A stretch of 64,000 nucleotides of DNA, taken from NCBI GenBank assembly GCA_027482185.1, contig JAIXWF010000022.1, positions 124,001-188,000 of the forward strand, given 5' to 3'. The DNA is from Opitutaceae bacterium. Lineage in GTDB: Bacteria; Verrucomicrobiota; Verrucomicrobiia; Opitutales; Opitutaceae. This document shows, in pieces, positions 1,039-44,071 of the stretch; position 1 is the stretch's first letter, and each line of letters starts with the position of its first letter. The position numbers were made by a program, and so were the translations under genes. The notes beneath the pieces are model-generated. The model saw only the letters and a list, made by a program, of their open reading frames with translations, was not told the origin of the DNA and made no database searches.

Positions 1039-2601
1039 ATGAGCGACGAGCAAACGCCACCGCCCCCCGCGCTGCGCCTGAAGCCACGCTTGCGCCCGGC
1101 GGAGGCCCCCGCCGAGTCCGCCGCTCCGCCGAGTCCGCCGCCGGCCGTCGTGCCGCCGGTTGCTCCCGAGGTGCCGGCCGAGCCGCCGGCGGCGCCGAAA
1201 ATCCGTTTCAAACCGCGGCTGAATGCCGAAGCGGCCGCTCCGGCCGCGGCGGAAAGCGCAGCGGCACCGGCCGAAGCGGCGCCGCCGCCGGCCGTTATCC
1301 CGGCGGTGATTCCGGCCGCGGTGCCGCCGCCTCCGCCCGCGGCGGCGTCCGGGGAAGCGCCGCGGATCCGGTTGAAGTCGAGGCTGGGCGGTGAAACCGC
1401 CGCCGGTGCGGCGCCGGTCCCCGTCGCTCCTCCGCCCGCTGTGATTCCTGCGCCGCCGGTCGAGCCGGTTGAGCCCGTTGCGCCGCCGCCGCCGGTTGCC
1501 GTGGTGCCTCCGCCTGCGCCGGTCATCCCGCCTCCGCCCGCGGTGCCGCGGCCGGTGCCCGGCGGTTCGCGGCCGCCGTTGCCCTTGCCGCCTCCGCCCG
1601 CGCTGCCGGCGGTGGCGGTCGAGCCGGGCGGGAAATTCAAACTCAAGCCCAAGGTCCCCCCGCTCGGCGGTCCGGCGGTCCCGGCGGTGCCCGGGGCCGT
1701 GATCCCGGCCGTGCCGGCTGCGGTGCCCCCGGTGGCGGCGGCGCCGGCCGGAATTCCTCCGGCTCCGGCGGCGGACGGTGCGCCCAAAGCTCCGCCGCCT
1801 TTCCCGGTGATGGCGCCTCCGGCCAGCGGCAAAACCACGCCGCCGATCCCGCATGTCGCGATGAAGGCCGCGGCGGTCGATGCGCCGCCGCCCGCCGCGT
1901 TGGCGAAGCCCAAGGCGAAGGGGAAAAAGAATCTCAAGCTGCCGCTGATCGCGGCCGCGGCGGTGCTGGTGCTCGGTGGCGGCGGCTTCGCGGCGTGGAC
2001 GTTGTTCCTCCAGCCCGAACCTCCCCCGCCGCCGCCGCTTGTGATTAAGCCGAAGGCCCCGGCTCCGGCCGCGCCGGCGCCTGCCCCGGCGGCCGCAGCC
2101 GCGGCCAAGGCCCCTGCGGCGGGATCGGCGGAAAACGCGACGCCCGTCGACGCGCTGAACAAACTTGCGCACGCTCCGGCGGATGCGATCCAGAAGGCGC
2201 AGGATGCGATCGCCGCCCGGCGGGAAAGCGGCCAAGGGCGCGTCGAATCCGCGTTGGCGGCCGAGGATCTCGGCAACAAGCCGGCGCAGGCGGCGACACC
2301 TGCGACTCCGGCGATGACGACGTCGACGGGTACCCGCTCCGTGGGCCAGGGTTTGACCGCGATGATCGAGGTCAACGCGGTGGCCGAGGCCAGCCAGGAG
2401 TTCCGATCCTTTGTCGCGAATGCGCGCGTGAGCGGCGTATTCCAGGGCGCGCCGTCCCGCGCCTTCATCAACGGCCGGTTGACCCGCGCCGGCGAAACCG
2501 TGGAGCCGAATCTCGGGATCGTCTTCGAGGCGGTCGACGCGGAGACCAAGCAGCTGATTTTCCGCGACAAGTCCGGCGCGTTTGTATCGCGCCGCTACTG
2601 A
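1039..2601 (+). CDS. proline/alanine-rich single-pass membrane protein with repeated RLKPRL boxes
   Basis: A 520-residue protein. Residues 1 to about 290 are low-complexity Pro/Ala/Val and carry four basic boxes (RLKPRL near 13, RFKPRL near 56, RLKSRL near 111, KLKPKV near 200). One transmembrane helix (LPLIAAAAVLVLGGGG) lies near 300-320 after a Lys-rich stop (KGKKNLK), then a second Pro/Ala linker. The C-terminal 80 residues are folded-looking and non-repetitive (VSGVFQGAPSRAFINGRL ... FVSRRY). That tail faintly resembles the periplasmic C domain of GspB/PilP-type secretion proteins, but this is a guess. Expected topology is cytoplasmic N terminus, periplasmic C terminus. I chose the ATG because the compositional pattern starts there; no good Shine-Dalgarno is close. 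Its stop codon lies inside a perfect hairpin. Confidence 0.7.
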   Translation: MSDEQTPPPPALRLKPRLRPAEAPAESAAPPSPPPAVVPPVAPEVPAEPPAAPKIRFKPRLNAEAAAPAAAESAAAPAEAAPPPAVIPAVIPAAVPPPPPAAASGEAPRIRLKSRLGGETAAGAAPVPVAPPPAVIPAPPVEPVEPVAPPPPVAVVPPPAPVIPPPPAVPRPVPGGSRPPLPLPPPPALPAVAVEPGGKFKLKPKVPPLGGPAVPAVPGAVIPAVPAAVPPVAAAPAGIPPAPAADGAPKAPPPFPVMAPPASGKTTPPIPHVAMKAAAVDAPPPAALAKPKAKGKKNLKLPLIAAAAVLVLGGGGFAAWTLFLQPEPPPPPPLVIKPKAPAPAAPAPAPAAAAAAKAPAAGSAENATPVDALNKLAHAPADAIQKAQDAIAARRESGQGRVESALAAEDLGNKPAQAATPATPAMTTSTGTRSVGQGLTAMIEVNAVAEASQEFRSFVANARVSGVFQGAPSRAFINGRLTRAGETVEPNLGIVFEAVDAETKQLIFRDKSGAFVSRRY

Positions 2602-2627
2602 AACCGGCCGTTCGCGGCCGGTTTCAG
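2598..2627. terminator. 13-bp hairpin enclosing the stop codon of the proline-rich gene
   Basis: Left arm 2598-2610 (CTGAAACCGGCCG), TTCG loop 2611-2614 and right arm 2615-2627 are perfectly complementary. The TGA stop at 2599-2601 is part of the stem. No T-run follows; a heptad array begins immediately. It is probably a transcript 3'-end structure, possibly bidirectional. Confidence 0.75.
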
Positions 2628-2628
2628 A

Positions 2629-2749
2629 TTTGGGGTTCGGAGTTTGGGGTTTGGAGTTCCGGTGATCGGCTCCTTGGTGCGGCTGAATCTGCGCCCGAGG
2701 TAGGCGCGACGCTTCCCAACTCCAAACTCCGAACTCCAAACTCCGAACC
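2629..2749. repeat. inverted pair of 7-bp-period arrays (GGAGTTT / ACTCCAA-ACTCCGA)
   Basis: The left arm 2629-2660 reads as successive seven-base units of the GGAGTTT/GGGGTTT type. The right arm 2715-2749 is its inverse, with units ACTCCAA and ACTCCGA. The arms flank about 54 bp of unrelated spacer, so the transcript of either strand could fold into a long stem. It lies between two convergent genes and between two stop-codon hairpins. Confidence 0.85.
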
Positions 2750-2756
2750 GTTAACG

Positions 2757-2780
2757 GTGACGCGCCCTTCGGCGCGTCAC
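2757..2780. terminator. 10-bp hairpin enclosing the stop codon of the metalloprotease gene
   Basis: Arms 2757-2766 (GTGACGCGCC) and 2771-2780 (GGCGCGTCAC) flank a CTTC loop. The minus-strand TGA (2777-2779) lies in the stem. This mirrors the hairpin at 2598-2627 on the other side of the heptad element. Confidence 0.75.
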
Positions 2781-5700
2781 GGGACTTCGTAGATCTCGAC
2801 GAGTGCGACCCCGTTGGCGCCGCCGTTGCCGCTGATCTGGGCGGTGTACGTGCCGGGCTGGAGGCGGGCGAGCAGGGCGGCGTCGCGGGCGGCGGCCGGC
2901 AGGGCGAAGGCGCCGACGCTGGCGAAGGCGGCGGTGAGTTCGGCGGTGCCGCCCCAGTTGTCGTTTTCCTGCACCTTCACGGCGGAGCTGTTGAAGAGTT
3001 CGAGTTTCGGATCGGCGAGGACGTCGGTGACGCCGAAGGCGGAGAGGGTCGGACCGATGGCCCGGATGAGGACCGTCTTCGGGGTCGGGCCGGCGATCGC
3101 GAATCCGGCGATGAGGGTCTCGGCGCCGGAGCCGCTGACGGTGCGGGCCGAGACGTTGACGAGGCGCGGGGTGGTCGCGGTGAAGGCGGCGGACGGCGTC
3201 GCGTCGTAGATCTCGGCCAAGGTGACGCCGGTGGCTCCGGCGTTGCCGGAGATCTGGGCGGAGTAACCGCCGGCGGCAACCGTGGGATTGTAGATCGCGG
3301 CATCGCGGCTGCCGATGGTCAGGGCGAAGGCGCCGACGCTGGCAAATATGCCGGCGTCCGAGGACGACCAGTTGTCGTTTTCGGCGACTCGGACCGTGCC
3401 GGCGTACACTTCCATGCGCGGATCGACGAGGGCGCCGGTCACGCCGAAGGCGGCGAGGGTGGGGCCGATGCCGCGGATCACCAGCGGCTTGGAGCCGGTG
3501 GTGGCGCCGCCGCCGACGACGAAGCCGACGATCAGGGTCTGCGCACCGGTGCCGGCGTTCGTGCGGATGGAGAGGTTGGCGATGCGGCTGACCTCGGGGC
3601 CGGCGGCGACGGCGGTGACGGTGACGACGGCGGGAGAACTTTCGATGGTCCGGCCGGCGCCGGTGACGACGACGGTGTAGCGCCCGGCGTTGGCCGCGGT
3701 GGCCGCGGCCAAAGTGAGCGTCGCGGCGGTCGCGCCGGGCACGGCGACGCCGTCCTTGCGCCACTGATACGTCACGGCGCCGGCGGCGGCGGCCTCGGCC
3801 CGGAGGACGGCGGTGCCGCCGGCGGCGACGGTGGCGTTGGCCGGAGCCTGCGTGAGGTAGAGCCCGGCGCCGACCACGGCGAAACTGCCCTGAGCCGAGG
3901 CGGCGAGCGTGTGGGCGCGGGGCAGGCCGGACGGCACGGTGGTCTTGCCGCCGGTGGCGCTGCCCCAGGCGACGACGGTGCCGTCGGACTTGAGGGCGAG
4001 GGAGTGGAAATCGCCGGCGGCGACGGCGACGACGTTGTTCAGGCCGGCGGGGACGTTGATCTGGCCGTTGCCGTTGTTGCCCCAGGCGGCGACGGTGCCG
4101 TCGCCGCGCAAGGCCAGCGCATGGGTGCCACCGGCAGCGACGGCGACGACGCCCGTGACGGCGGCCGGGACGGTGCGGATGCCGGTGCCGCCGAGGGCGA
4201 CGACGGCGCCGTTGCGGCGCAGGATCACGGAGGTCTGGTTCCCGGCGGCGATGTCGACGGCGTCGTCGAGCCCGGCGGGCAGGGCGGTTTGGCCGACGGC
4301 ATTGCTGCCCCAGGCGACGACAGTGCCGTCGGTCTTCAGCGCGAGGACGTGGTTGTTGCCGATGGCGAGTTTGCGGACGCCGGACAGCCCTTCGGGCGGG
4401 GTGAGGAGTTGGCCGATGCCGGAGCCCCAGAGGATGGCGCGGCCGTCGCGCAGGACGGCGCCGCTGACATTGCCGCCGGCGGCGACGGACGCGACGAGGT
4501 CGTTGATCTGCGGGACAGTGGCCTGGCCGAAGACGTTGTCGCCCCAGGCGACGACGGTGCCGTTGGCCCGGAGGGCAACGGCGTGGCCGGTGCCGCCGGC
4601 GAGGGCGCGGATGCCGTTGAGCCCGATGGGCGTGTTGGTGACGGCGGTGGGCGTATCCAGAAAATTGAGTCCGGTGCCCCAGGCGGCGGCGACGTCGGGC
4701 GGCGCGGCGGGCAGGGTGACCTCGATGTCGAGCCACTGGGCGGGTTCGGCGCCGCCCTGGGCGGCGGTGCGGAGTTTCACGCCGGCAACGGTGTCGTCGA
4801 GGGTTGCGCCGACCGGGAGAGCGGAGTCGTTGGGGTTGGTGCCCGGGGTCGCGAAGTCGATGAGCTGGCTTTCCTGCTGGGCGTTGAAGCCCCAGATGAC
4901 GTTGGCGCCGCCGCCGAGCGTGCTGCCGGGCAGGGCCTGGCGGTGGCCGACCCAGTACCAGCGGACGCCGTCGCGGAAAACCCGGAGGGCGAGCGGGGCG
5001 GCCCGGTTGGCGGCGGGGCTGTCGTATCGGCTGATGCGGTACGTGCCGCTGGCCGCCGGGACGGTGACGGCGGCGTCGGGCAGCCAGCCGAGCTGGTTTT
5101 TGCACCAGTGGTTGAAATGGTAGCGGCCGTCGCGGGAGGCGTTGTCGCCCATCATGTCGAAGGGATCGCCGTACTCGCGGCTGCTGCCGGCGGCGGAGAG
5201 GGGGTTGCCGTCGTTGACGACCCAGAGGCTGGAGTGCTTGAGGCCCCAGTTGTGGCCGAGTTCGTGGGCGGTGACGCCGAGGCCGAAGGAGCCGTTGAGC
5301 CAGGAGTTGGTGCCGCCGACGGTGGCGAGGCCGCCGAAGCCGAACTGCGAGCCGGGCACGCGGGTGGAGCGGAGATTGGTGAACACGACCATGATCCGGT
5401 CGTAGTCGGCCATGGTGTAGTCGGCGGCGGCGGCGGTGCGCGCGGCGGTGTGGAGGCCGCTGCTGTTGTTGGCGGTGGCGTAGCTGGCGCCGGTGGCGGG
5501 CATCCGGTAGACCGTGGGGCTGACGGTGGCGGTGAACGTCGTGAGGCCGTAGCTGTTTTCCTCGAAGAATTCGCGGACGGGGCCGTTGATGGTGTCGGAA
5601 AACGTGCCGGCGGCGATGGGTTCGCCGGGGAAGTCGGGGAAGTCGACGCGGATCACGAGGATCTTCTTGGCGCCGATGGTCCACGGCGTGGCGGGGTCGG

Positions 5701-6664
5701 CGGCGCGGGGCGGGGCGACGGTGCCGTTGGGCGCGAGGGCGGGCACGATCGGACCCTCGCGTTCCTCGGCGGCAATGAGGCGCTGTTCGAACTGTTCGAG
5801 GGCGTCGTCGCCGGCGTCGAGTTGCCAGAGCCGGCCGTGGGCAAAGACGACGAGGGCGGCTTCGCCGACCGGGGCGGCGGGATCGGCGGGAGCGAGAGCG
5901 CGATGGGTGACGGGGCAGCGGTCGACGATGTCGGCGCCCGGGATTTCGTCCGCTTCAAGGAGGCGGAGCGGGCTCTCGTGGAGGGCGAATTCGCCGGCGA
6001 GGGCGATGCCGTGGAGCGAAGCGCCTTCCTCGGTGGTCTGGGCGAGGCGGCGGCCGTAGGGATGGGCGGTGAAGGTGGTGTCCTCGAGATAAACGGTGCG
6101 GCGGCTGGTTTCGCCGCGGCCCGGGGCGGCGTCGGGCGCGAGTTGGGCCTGCTGCAGGGCGAACTCGCCGGTGCCGGCGACGCGGGATTCGAGTTGGGCG
6201 AGGACGGCCGGGGGCAATTCGCGGCGGATGGCGGCGGGGACGGTGACGGCGAGGGCCTCGGCCGGTTGGCGGCGAATCAGATGGAGCATCGCGGCACGGC
6301 GTTGGCGGGCGAGGAACACGCCTTCGCCCTCGAGGGCGGCGCGGGCGGCGGGATCGGCGGCGCGGCGGTAGCGCTCGGTCCAGGCGCGGAAGGCGGCGAG
6401 CGTCGGGATGGACGTGTTTTCCCACCGGTGGGCGTAGGCGAGCCGGGTGCGGCGCTCGGCGCGGCGAGCGACGACATCGCCGGCATCGGTGGCGGCGGGG
6501 GAGGATGCCGGGGTGGCGGCGGCGGCGAATGCAGTCGCCGGGGCGGGAGGAAGGATCGGCCGGGAGGCCGCGGGAGCCGGGCGCTCGGGGGCGCGGTAAA
6601 GCCAGGAGAGCGAGCCGGCGGCGACGGCGACAAGGAGAAGGACCGCGGAGCGGGAGAAGCGCAT
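2777..6664 (-). CDS. secreted zinc metalloprotease (M11/M6-like) with RCC1-like, Ig-like and two C-terminal modules
   Basis: A 1,295-residue secreted protein. It has an N-terminal signal segment (AVLLLVAVAAGSLSWLY), a long propeptide-like region, and a catalytic domain whose zinc site HELGHNWGLKHS lies near residues 466-477, matching HExxHxxGxxH. A run of about six RCC1-like repeats (VVAWGxxxxGQ, about 660-920) follows, then an Ig-like domain (about 925-1020, TYQWRKDGVAVPGAT). Two copies of a roughly 130-residue module end the protein (about 1026-1165 and 1166-1295), the last finishing in LVEIYEVP. The same module ends the dehydrogenase at 34701-37817. Role inferred: extracellular or cell-surface proteolysis. 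M11 (gametolysin) versus M6 cannot be settled by eye. The ATG at 6662-6664 is chosen because the signal peptide follows directly. Confidence 0.85.
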   Translation of the reverse strand: MRFSRSAVLLLVAVAAGSLSWLYRAPERPAPAASRPILPPAPATAFAAAATPASSPAATDAGDVVARRAERRTRLAYAHRWENTSIPTLAAFRAWTERYRRAADPAARAALEGEGVFLARQRRAAMLHLIRRQPAEALAVTVPAAIRRELPPAVLAQLESRVAGTGEFALQQAQLAPDAAPGRGETSRRTVYLEDTTFTAHPYGRRLAQTTEEGASLHGIALAGEFALHESPLRLLEADEIPGADIVDRCPVTHRALAPADPAAPVGEAALVVFAHGRLWQLDAGDDALEQFEQRLIAAEEREGPIVPALAPNGTVAPPRAADPATPWTIGAKKILVIRVDFPDFPGEPIAAGTFSDTINGPVREFFEENSYGLTTFTATVSPTVYRMPATGASYATANNSSGLHTAARTAAAADYTMADYDRIMVVFTNLRSTRVPGSQFGFGGLATVGGTNSWLNGSFGLGVTAHELGHNWGLKHSSLWVVNDGNPLSAAGSSREYGDPFDMMGDNASRDGRYHFNHWCKNQLGWLPDAAVTVPAASGTYRISRYDSPAANRAAPLALRVFRDGVRWYWVGHRQALPGSTLGGGANVIWGFNAQQESQLIDFATPGTNPNDSALPVGATLDDTVAGVKLRTAAQGGAEPAQWLDIEVTLPAAPPDVAAAWGTGLNFLDTPTAVTNTPIGLNGIRALAGGTGHAVALRANGTVVAWGDNVFGQATVPQINDLVASVAAGGNVSGAVLRDGRAILWGSGIGQLLTPPEGLSGVRKLAIGNNHVLALKTDGTVVAWGSNAVGQTALPAGLDDAVDIAAGNQTSVILRRNGAVVALGGTGIRTVPAAVTGVVAVAAGGTHALALRGDGTVAAWGNNGNGQINVPAGLNNVVAVAAGDFHSLALKSDGTVVAWGSATGGKTTVPSGLPRAHTLAASAQGSFAVVGAGLYLTQAPANATVAAGGTAVLRAEAAAAGAVTYQWRKDGVAVPGATAATLTLAAATAANAGRYTVVVTGAGRTIESSPAVVTVTAVAAGPEVSRIANLSIRTNAGTGAQTLIVGFVVGGGATTGSKPLVIRGIGPTLAAFGVTGALVDPRMEVYAGTVRVAENDNWSSSDAGIFASVGAFALTIGSRDAAIYNPTVAAGGYSAQISGNAGATGVTLAEIYDATPSAAFTATTPRLVNVSARTVSGSGAETLIAGFAIAGPTPKTVLIRAIGPTLSAFGVTDVLADPKLELFNSSAVKVQENDNWGGTAELTAAFASVGAFALPAAARDAALLARLQPGTYTAQISGNGGANGVALVEIYEVP

Positions 6665-11987: not shown

Positions 11988-13138
<1,151 letters not shown>

Positions 13139-26669: not shown

Positions 26670-27070
26670 GTGGGAGAAAGGGAACTAAGGGGCCGGCGGC
26701 CGCGGCGCAATCGCCGAGGCGGGTTCAGGCGAACTCAAGCCGTTGAGGGAGCTTGGCTGAAAGTTGAGAGCAAAACCGTTCGGTTTTTCAGGCTGTTGGC
26801 TGCGGCGGTGTTTTCCGTGGCTCGGCGAATCGGTCTCTCAACTCCCAACTTTCAAGGAGCCTCTGAAAACCTGCGGGTGATTTGGCAGTCTGCGGAATTC
26901 GGCCCCTGGGATTGCCGCAAAGAAACTCAAAACCGCAAAATCTGCGACCGAGGCAGCCGATCTTGCGCTCTTTGCGCCTCTTGGCGGCAATCTGCCCTCC
27001 GGCGCTGGGGCAAGAAACTCAGCCACGCGTTTTTCAGAGCTTCCTCTACTTTCGACGGTCTTATTCCGCC
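26670..27070. other. 401-bp gene-free spacer with heptad arms and a 19-bp duplicated string
   Basis: The spacer holds two inverted heptad arms (26740-26770 and 26835-26855, GTTGAGAG / CTCTCAAC type) and a small hairpin AAAACCG-TT-CGGTTTT (26772-26787). It also holds the string CGTTTTTCAGAGCTTCCTC (27028-27046), which recurs exactly at 43232-43250. I see no convincing coding region. Confidence 0.7.
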
Positions 27071-43038: not shown

Positions 43039-43106
43039 GTCGGGGTCGGCGGCTTATGACGGAGGGAGACGCCTCCGCGGGCCGGCCGGCTCAGCCTGAA
43101 TTGTGC

Positions 43107-43275
43107 AGTTGAGCGTTGAAAGTTGAGAGTTGAGAGATCGATCGGCCGAGCCACGGAAAATCGGCTGAAGCCGGCAACCTGACGGACCGAACGGGTTTGC
43201 GCTCGCGGCTACACGTCGGTCGCGGCCGGGGCGTTTTTCAGAGCTTCCTCAACTCTCAGCCAAGCTTTCTCAACG
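43107..43275. repeat. inverted GAGTTGA-family arms in the TonB receptor/SDR spacer
   Basis: The left arm 43107-43138 consists of AGTTGAGCGTTGAAAGTTGA-style heptads. The right arm 43239-43275 contains AGCTTCC, TCAACTC, TCAGCCA, AGCTTTC and TCAACGG. The arms are about 100 bp apart. The spacer 42921-43288 has no gene. Confidence 0.8.
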
Positions 43276-43288
43276 GCATGCGTTCGGC

Positions 43289-44071
43289 TCAGAGCCGGTG
43301 CAGGTGGAACCCGCCGTCGACGTCGAAGCAGGCGCCGGTCGAGAACGGGAAACGGTCCTCGGCGATGGCGCGGACGGCGCGGCCGATGTCCTCGGGTTTG
43401 CCCCACCGGCGGATCGGCGTGATGCCGCGTTCGTCGGTGATGATGAGCTTGTCGTACTTTTCCTTCACGCCGCCGGTCATGTCGGTGGCGATGACGCCGG
43501 GGCGGATTTCGTAGACGTTGATGCCGTCGTTCGCGAGGCGGTCGGCGAAGAGCTTGGTCATCATGGCGAGGCCGGCCTTCACCATGCAGTAGTCGCCGCG
43601 GTTGATGGAGGCGGTGTAGACGGAGATCGAGGTGATGTTGACCATGCGGCCGCGGAAGCCCTCGGCGTCGCGTTCCTGTTTCAGCATCTGCTTCGCGACC
43701 AACTGCGAGAGGAAGAACGGGCCCTTGAGATTGATGGCGTAGAGGCGGTCGAAGCTTTCCTCGCCGGCATCGAGCAGATCGGCGCGGACCTTGGGGGCGA
43801 CGCCGGCGTTGTTGACGAGGAGATCGATGCGGCCGAACTGCGCGACCGTCTCGGCGACGAGGCGCTCGCGGTCCGCGGCGACGGCGACGTCGCCCTGGAC
43901 GATGAAACCGTCGCCGCCCGCGGCCTTGACGAGGGCGAGGGCCTCGGCGGCGGCTTCGGCGTTGCCGGCGTAGTTGATGGCAACGCGGTAGCCGGCGCGG
44001 GCGAGTTCGATGGCGATGCCGCGGCCGATGCCGCGCGAGGCGCCGGTGACGAGAGCGGATTTCCGGGTCAT
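43289..44071 (-). CDS. short-chain dehydrogenase/reductase (3-oxoacyl-ACP-reductase-like)
   Basis: 260 residues, classical SDR length. The nucleotide-binding [10 protein letters not shown] is at about 9-18, the NNAG motif is in [10 protein letters not shown], the catalytic Ser/Tyr/Lys set is in [10 protein letters not shown] and GDYCMVKAG, and the end is FDVDGGFHL. The C-terminal insertion with [12 protein letters not shown] before [12 protein letters not shown] is also seen in sugar-acid or short-chain ketone reductases. The substrate is not readable. The stop codon lies in the loop of a small hairpin (CGGCTCAGAGCCG). It is downstream of a dipeptide epimerase gene in the same direction, separated by 305 bp of repeats. 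Confidence 0.88.

Follow-up and report, generated by a model that had tools for sequence, protein, structure and literature searches.

What purpose, if any, is served by a 183-bp spacer in which two convergent genes of an Opitutaceae bacterium both end in a hairpin? The spacer (2598-2780) lies in a window of 64,000 nucleotides, the whole stretch of DNA that we analyzed (contig JAIXWF010000022.1, positions 124,001 to 188,000). The gene on the plus strand (1612-2601) ends in the first hairpin and the gene on the minus strand (2777-6664) in the second; the starts of both are uncertain, and these gene calls, like all others used here, were made with our own script. The plus gene matched no Pfam family at E ≤ 0.001, and the minus gene encodes RCC1 repeats and an Ig-like domain that scored below its Pfam cut-off.

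Five parts make up the spacer, and their positions, as proposed by the sequence-only reading that drew attention to the locus, proved right to the base when compared with the sequence and with a repeat search. The plus-gene stop-codon hairpin (2598-2627) has a perfect 13-bp stem (2598-2610/2615-2627), the 4-nt loop TTCG and the TGA codon at 2599-2601. It is followed by a heptad arm (2629-2659; GGGGTTC, GGAGTTT, GGGGTTT, and GGAGTTC units among others) whose G-rich strand is the sense strand of the plus gene, by a 54-bp core (2660-2713), by an inverse arm (2714-2749) with GGAGTTY units on the minus strand, the sense strand of the minus gene, and by the minus-gene stop-codon hairpin (2757-2780), a perfect 10-bp stem (2757-2766/2771-2780) with the stop codon, read as TCA, at 2777-2779. 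The best match between arm and inverse arm extends over 25 nt with 92% complementarity in the repeat search. When up to one mismatch is allowed, 12 matches to the heptad motif are present in the window, six of them inside the 183-bp spacer (shuffle mean 0.16; 100 shuffles). Essentially only the arms are shared with the 536 spacers with which we compared it: the middle of the core matched none of them (0/536), no repeated core was seen among them, and neither was a REP-like conserved palindrome common to the copies. The description of the spacer as a layered design rather than as a single simple inverted repeat is upheld.

The folds predicted for the RNA of positions 2590-2790 are strong for both transcripts (plus strand, z = -7.99; minus strand, z = -7.30), and none of 200 shuffles was as good in either case. 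An intrinsic terminator consists of a GC-rich hairpin and a U-tract. The locus shares with it the GC-rich hairpin, located at the stop codon or directly behind it; however, a terminator scan of positions 2400-3000 detected no U-tract hairpin on either strand, and the arm and inverse arm are additional. No Rfam family was matched at its gathering score anywhere in the window, nor was a tRNA found in it.

Among named genomes, the best match to the minus gene is NEUS01000113.1 from the MAG 'Opitutia bacterium Tous-C1TDCM', in a search from which records of the source genome were possibly excluded. This genome (G412) is evidently identical to the same-genus genome G387, since the listed match positions agree, and it contains 250 matches to three consecutive GGAGTTY units. 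Its orthologous spacer consists of a stop hairpin, a GGAGTTY arm, a different core, an inverse arm, and a second stop hairpin. The structural conservation on which the sequence-only reading had staked its proposal therefore holds in the closest relative, where the layout is kept together with both flanking genes. Its claim that the entire 183 bp is palindromically organized applies to hairpins and arms and is too wide for the 54-bp core, since the core has been replaced in this relative. All 13 pairs of the plus-gene hairpin and nine of the ten pairs of the minus-gene hairpin are unchanged, and the remaining one is broken; hence, the compensatory changes that had been suggested as a check are absent, and the 183-bp spacer offers no compensatory evidence in this comparison.

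The plus gene was used for a protein search of the genus; 24 of 27 genomes matched, and 12 loci were read. The element is present at this gene in the source genome and in G387. At each of the other ten loci (10/10), arrays are absent over a distance of 250 nt and a stem of 8 bp or more is lacking near the stop codon; the next gene is convergent at a distance of -7 to 228 bp and is, judged by eye, a different gene. Genus-wide conservation at the plus-gene locus is thus rejected, and structural conservation extends to the closest relative but not to these ten loci with their differing neighbor.

A broader basis was provided by 1.2 Mb of contig C3 and the window, which together comprise 1.264 Mb and 944 called genes. 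Spacers of at least 20 bp were scanned for arrays with a lag-7 score of at least 10. Convergent spacers often hold such arrays (36/121), tandem spacers less often (48/432), and divergent ones rarely (2/143); 129 arrays reside in spacers, as opposed to 21 in all called coding sequence. The other lags from 4 to 13 yielded at most 12 arrays in any spacer class (the maximum being lag 9 in convergent spacers), and lag 14, the double of 7, behaves like lag 7. In the source genome, 375 matches to three GGAGTTY units were found with up to two mismatches, and none was found for the backwards control. GGAGTTY coexists with units of other families (GTTGARA, NNTCAGC, AAGCNNT, CGGARAC, GGGTTTT, TTGCGGA, and others).

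Several observations were made alongside this census. The top-scoring lag-7 array of the window (11988-12055) consists of nearly ten perfect tandem copies of GCGGTCA and runs across the predicted end of a minus-strand gene. Convergent spacers also hold a minor excess of arrays with a 9-bp period (12 arrays, spread over 11 of the 121 spacers); one example noticed by eye is a ATGGGACGG-like array after one stop hairpin. Contigs C1 and C18 of the source genome are inside long GGAGTTC arrays within their first 90 bases, and the same holds for the starts of contigs C69 and C105 and the ends of contigs C65 and C121 of G412. The longest arrays therefore probably break assemblies and are under-counted.

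The arrays are positioned with respect to the genes that they follow. The G-rich strand is the sense strand in 70 of the 82 arrays located at most 40 nt from a stop codon. Of 33 array-bearing tandem spacers of at least 150 bp, 21 have a block that starts no more than 30 nt from the stop; random placement predicts 7.9 and reached at most 16 in 5000 trials. In convergent spacers, anchoring to the stop was not significant (13/22; p = 0.096). These positions bear on the main rival to a 3'-end element, namely that the arrays are neutral or selfish, slippage-prone DNA, seeded in part by a palindromic, MITE-like element with heptad arms and tolerated at gene ends, with hairpins and folding as by-products. 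We regard this explanation by tolerated slippage or mobile repeats as a serious contender whose probability falls somewhat short of one half. It does not lead one to expect arrays that adjoin the stop instead of lying anywhere in long tandem spacers, but stop-targeted insertion could still mimic such anchoring.

An element that acts at the level of DNA, either as an extruded cruciform or as a protein-binding array that absorbs supercoils or blocks colliding polymerases, would be in keeping with inverted pairs between convergent genes and with the perfect hairpins at both ends of the 183-bp spacer. However, the arrays are present in tandem spacers too, with the block at the stop, and the differing sequences of the unit families argue against one sequence-specific binder. 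We thus consider an element of this kind improbable.

Inverted pairing was assessed wherever a spacer holds two or more classified arrays; 32 arrays that carry no family label were omitted. The first and the last array formed an inverted pair of the same family in 13 of 19 convergent spacers (permutation mean 5.7, maximum 13 in 2000 permutations) and in 8 of 19 tandem spacers (permutation mean 2.6, maximum 7), counts that depend on unit lists drawn up after the arrays had been viewed. Two of these lists, for TCAGC and GCTGA, come close to being reverse complements of each other, which makes the family and strand labels of their units less sure. By these labels, the first array is sense in 19/19 convergent spacers and the last is antisense in 19/19. 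The tests of lag, G-content, and position are independent of the lists. Since inverted pairs occur in tandem spacers as well, the inversion is not merely the sum of two converging genes. The arms of a pair are, however, no more complementary to each other than to arms of the same family elsewhere (345.5 vs. 351, sd 15.6; p = 0.64; 21 pairs, 18 of them with same-family comparators). Compensatory pairing between the two arms and a finely matched long stem are therefore both unsupported, a result that is in line with neutral or selfish arrays.

The commonest array length is four units (52 of 127 arrays), a number that brings to mind G-quadruplex elements of the type proposed for the GGGAATC repeats of Xanthomonas and Nostoc, and GG tracts are indeed present in the GGAGTTY arrays. 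Only 4 of the 127 arrays contain a four-GGG motif, however, and hence we do not class them as quadruplex repeats; a four-GG motif is present in 39 of 127, and the four-unit peak is also seen in arrays without the four-GG motif (37/88). The arrangement is therefore independent of quadruplex potential, quadruplex formation as the common cause is not supported, and we judge this explanation most improbable.

Spacers with arrays also differ from others in their predicted folding. For spacers of at least 80 bp, the median z was -5.65 for those with inverted pairs (n = 20), -1.74 for those with single or other arrays (n = 67), and -0.85 for array-free spacers (n = 71, a random quarter). U-tract terminators are found at 2 of 110 array-bearing ends vs. 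37 of 392 other ends (pooled p = 0.0075), a depletion that is not significant within the classes (convergent, p = 0.11; tandem, p = 0.15). The link between arrays and hairpins is weak: in a set of 502 ends (gap ≥ 60), a hairpin with a stem of at least 8 bp near the stop was associated with an array (15/43 vs. 82/459; odds ratio 2.5; p = 0.014), and stems of at least 6 bp were not (p = 0.41). Of 595 3' ends with a gap ≥ 40, nine carry a perfect hairpin (stem ≥ 8 bp) whose 5' arm includes the stop codon. The 183-bp spacer accounts for two of these nine and is the sole convergent spacer among them with such a hairpin at each end. Heptads, judged by eye, follow directly after seven of the hairpins, weakly after an eighth, and not after the ninth.

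Turnover of the arrays can be followed in the closest relative, with which 239 syntenic gene pairs were established from 354 reciprocal best hits (median identity 90.2%). Where both genomes have a spacer of at least 60 bp and that of the source holds a strict array, the array of the relative is likewise strict in 10/12 convergent and 6/7 tandem cases and at least loose in 12/12 and 7/7. Source spacers without a strict array correspond to a loose array in the relative in 4/9 convergent and 7/58 tandem cases. Conversely, the relative has a strict array in 13 convergent spacers, and in 3 of these the source lacks even a loose one. This persistence at orthologous places is not what neutral or selfish arrays would lead one to expect. 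Two further observations speak for such arrays: their lengths vary between orthologues, and a whole element can be present or absent, as in one of the orthologous spacers, whose length with the stops included is 183 bp in the source but 15 bp in the relative. In the spacer orthologous to that between source genes 323 and 324 (G412 contig C84), a GGGTTTT-like unit stands against a GGAGTTC/GGCGTTC-like unit, next to an almost identical stop hairpin.

The base pairs of nine array-associated orthologous stop hairpins comprise 69 that are the same, 3 kept by a double change, 4 kept by a change on one side, 6 broken, and 2 gapped; the corresponding numbers for 25 plain orthologous hairpins are 122, 0, 11, 33, and 32. 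Four hairpins overlapping arrays and one U-tract hairpin were left out of this comparison, and one hairpin aligned as 18/18 pairs the same has, by eye, two outer pairs that are not kept. Double changes that keep pairing thus occur in 3/9 array-associated hairpins (from two spacers) vs. 0/25 plain ones; one of them is, by eye, a change from G-C to U-G. A slid control gave 175 of 438 paired. The ratio of kept to broken among changed pairs (7:6 vs. 11:33) does not differ significantly (p = 0.087). From this sequence comparison, we take the pair-keeping changes in array-associated stop hairpins as suggestive of maintenance of the pairing.

Array density is patchy within the genus, and this patchiness also favors neutral or selfish arrays. 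With up to one mismatch, three GGAGTTY units are found in 6 of 27 same-genus genomes (mainly the source, 237; G387, 173; G409, 59; G405, 22); GTTGARA triplets are found in 17 of 27 (283 in the source, where the backwards control gives 67 matches because it is itself heptad-like). When 8.5-40 kb of each of 14 relatives were sampled, five contained intergenic lag-7 arrays with a score of at least 9 (G409, G394, G411, G401, G010), and in a survey of the phylum three GGAGTTY units were present in 12 of 387 genomes, the source included.

A candidate seed for mobile repeats is available in the source genome. A dispersed, near-palindromic family of about 152 bp with inverted GTTGAGA arms occupies 28 distinct places of the 1.264 Mb (each match spanning 125 model positions or more); for 21 of these places, E is ≤ 1.3e-24. 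Copies of this MITE-like repeat, which has an ATCGATC-containing core and no Rfam match in the window, are located at 43095-43291 and 26726-26855 of the window and elsewhere in contig C3. Against a mobile origin of the spacer stands the finding that its arms alone, in essence, recur in other spacers. Y1 transposase counts do not track the heptads (source, 1; G387, 1; G010, 13; G390, 23), an observation that speaks, if anything, against REP-like mobilization by such an enzyme. The source genome has no RVT_1 match, and writing of the arrays in the manner of telomerases, retrons, or diversity-generating (DGR) systems is unsupported.

Taken together, we give about an even chance to a heptad-armed stem-loop at the 3' end of genes that serves termination or protects the mRNA end. 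The bias toward 3' ends, the anchoring to the stop in tandem spacers, and the scarcity of U-tracts at array-bearing ends are consistent with a role at transcript ends. We count in favor of such a 3'-end element the sense-strand bias, inverted pairs, strong folds, persistence at orthologous places, and double pair-keeping changes. Counted against it are the lack of complementarity specific to the own partner arm, the weak link between hairpins and arrays, the non-significant tests of kept vs. broken pairs, of class-wise U-tract depletion, and of convergent anchoring, the three of 13 relative-only arrays, the ten of ten other loci without the element, and the patchy density.

Behind the GC-rich hairpin that closes each of the two genes comes a short run of G-rich heptads. 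Since the arrays in a convergent spacer are inversely oriented, a transcript entering from either side reads the same order of parts, i.e., hairpin, G-rich arm, loop, C-rich arm, and hairpin, and could fold into a long, imperfect stem-loop. In a genome where U-tract terminators are scarce, this structure might serve transcripts of either direction by ending them or by protecting their 3' ends. Slippage and mutation may renew the arrays, with position, orientation, and the 7-nt period remaining. The proposal of the sequence-only reading that the spacer is a candidate for bidirectional termination is supported in part: it gains from the genome-wide fit to transcript ends and loses from the lack of a U-tract at the locus and of pair-specific complementarity. 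An unlikely, more specific variant is that the 7-nt period rather than the sequence is the conserved trait, the element being a two-way transcript-end module that is read with a 7-nt step; differing heptads fill the same place after the stop, and units are swapped beside an almost unchanged stop hairpin in sister species.

How does this element compare with known repeats? REP, BIME, and REPIN sequences of enterobacteria and pseudomonads are dispersed palindromic intergenic repeats found near 3' ends and rarely between divergent genes. Unlike these, the elements described here share no single conserved palindrome, and their arms are tandem heptads. In a non-exhaustive literature search, we came across no report of such repeats from Opitutaceae or Verrucomicrobiota. 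Heptanucleotide repeats are known from scattered bacteria. The TAACTGA direct repeats of Beggiatoaceae, Cyanobacteria, and Bacteroidetes, with 169 sets in one genome (MacGregor, 2015; PMC4679880), are likewise multi-copy intergenic arrays with a patchy distribution across lineages. In that study, however, they consist of one unit, are mostly placed just upstream of start codons, and include one indirect repeat only, whereas our arrays follow stop codons, comprise several units, and form inverted pairs.

The closest counterparts are the GGGAATC and GGGGA(C/T)T heptads of Xanthomonas and Nostoc that were studied as G-quadruplex formers (Rehm et al., 2015; PMC4692102). According to that work, the Xanthomonas GGGAATC repeats are over-represented in non-coding DNA and under-represented between divergent open reading frames, have the G-rich strand as sense strand within 50 bp of stop codons, form 70 and 75 inverted pairs in two genomes, favor a length of four units, and have kept their position in 83% of cases when a sister species is compared. 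The four-unit preference served as an argument for quadruplexes, and in one RNA-seq set transcript starts and stops were commoner at quadruplex-forming repeats than at controls; both studies leave the function of their repeats open (MacGregor, 2015; Rehm et al., 2015). Our arrays resemble these repeats in their 7-nt units, non-coding enrichment, sense orientation near stops, rarity in divergent spacers, inverted pairs, and four-unit peak (Rehm et al., 2015). They differ in that several unit families coexist, most arrays lack quadruplex potential, and stop-codon hairpins precede some of the arrays. The elements reported here also come from another lineage, the nearest named record being an Opitutia MAG. 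While the quadruplex idea arose from a G-rich unit, arrays of units that are mostly unable to form quadruplexes are here placed, oriented, and inversely paired in the same way and likewise peak at four units. This pattern suggests that the relevant feature is the location at 3' ends, the stem-loop, or the period of 7 nt, and the source genome and its sister genome provide a test ground for explanations by termination, slippage, and mobility.
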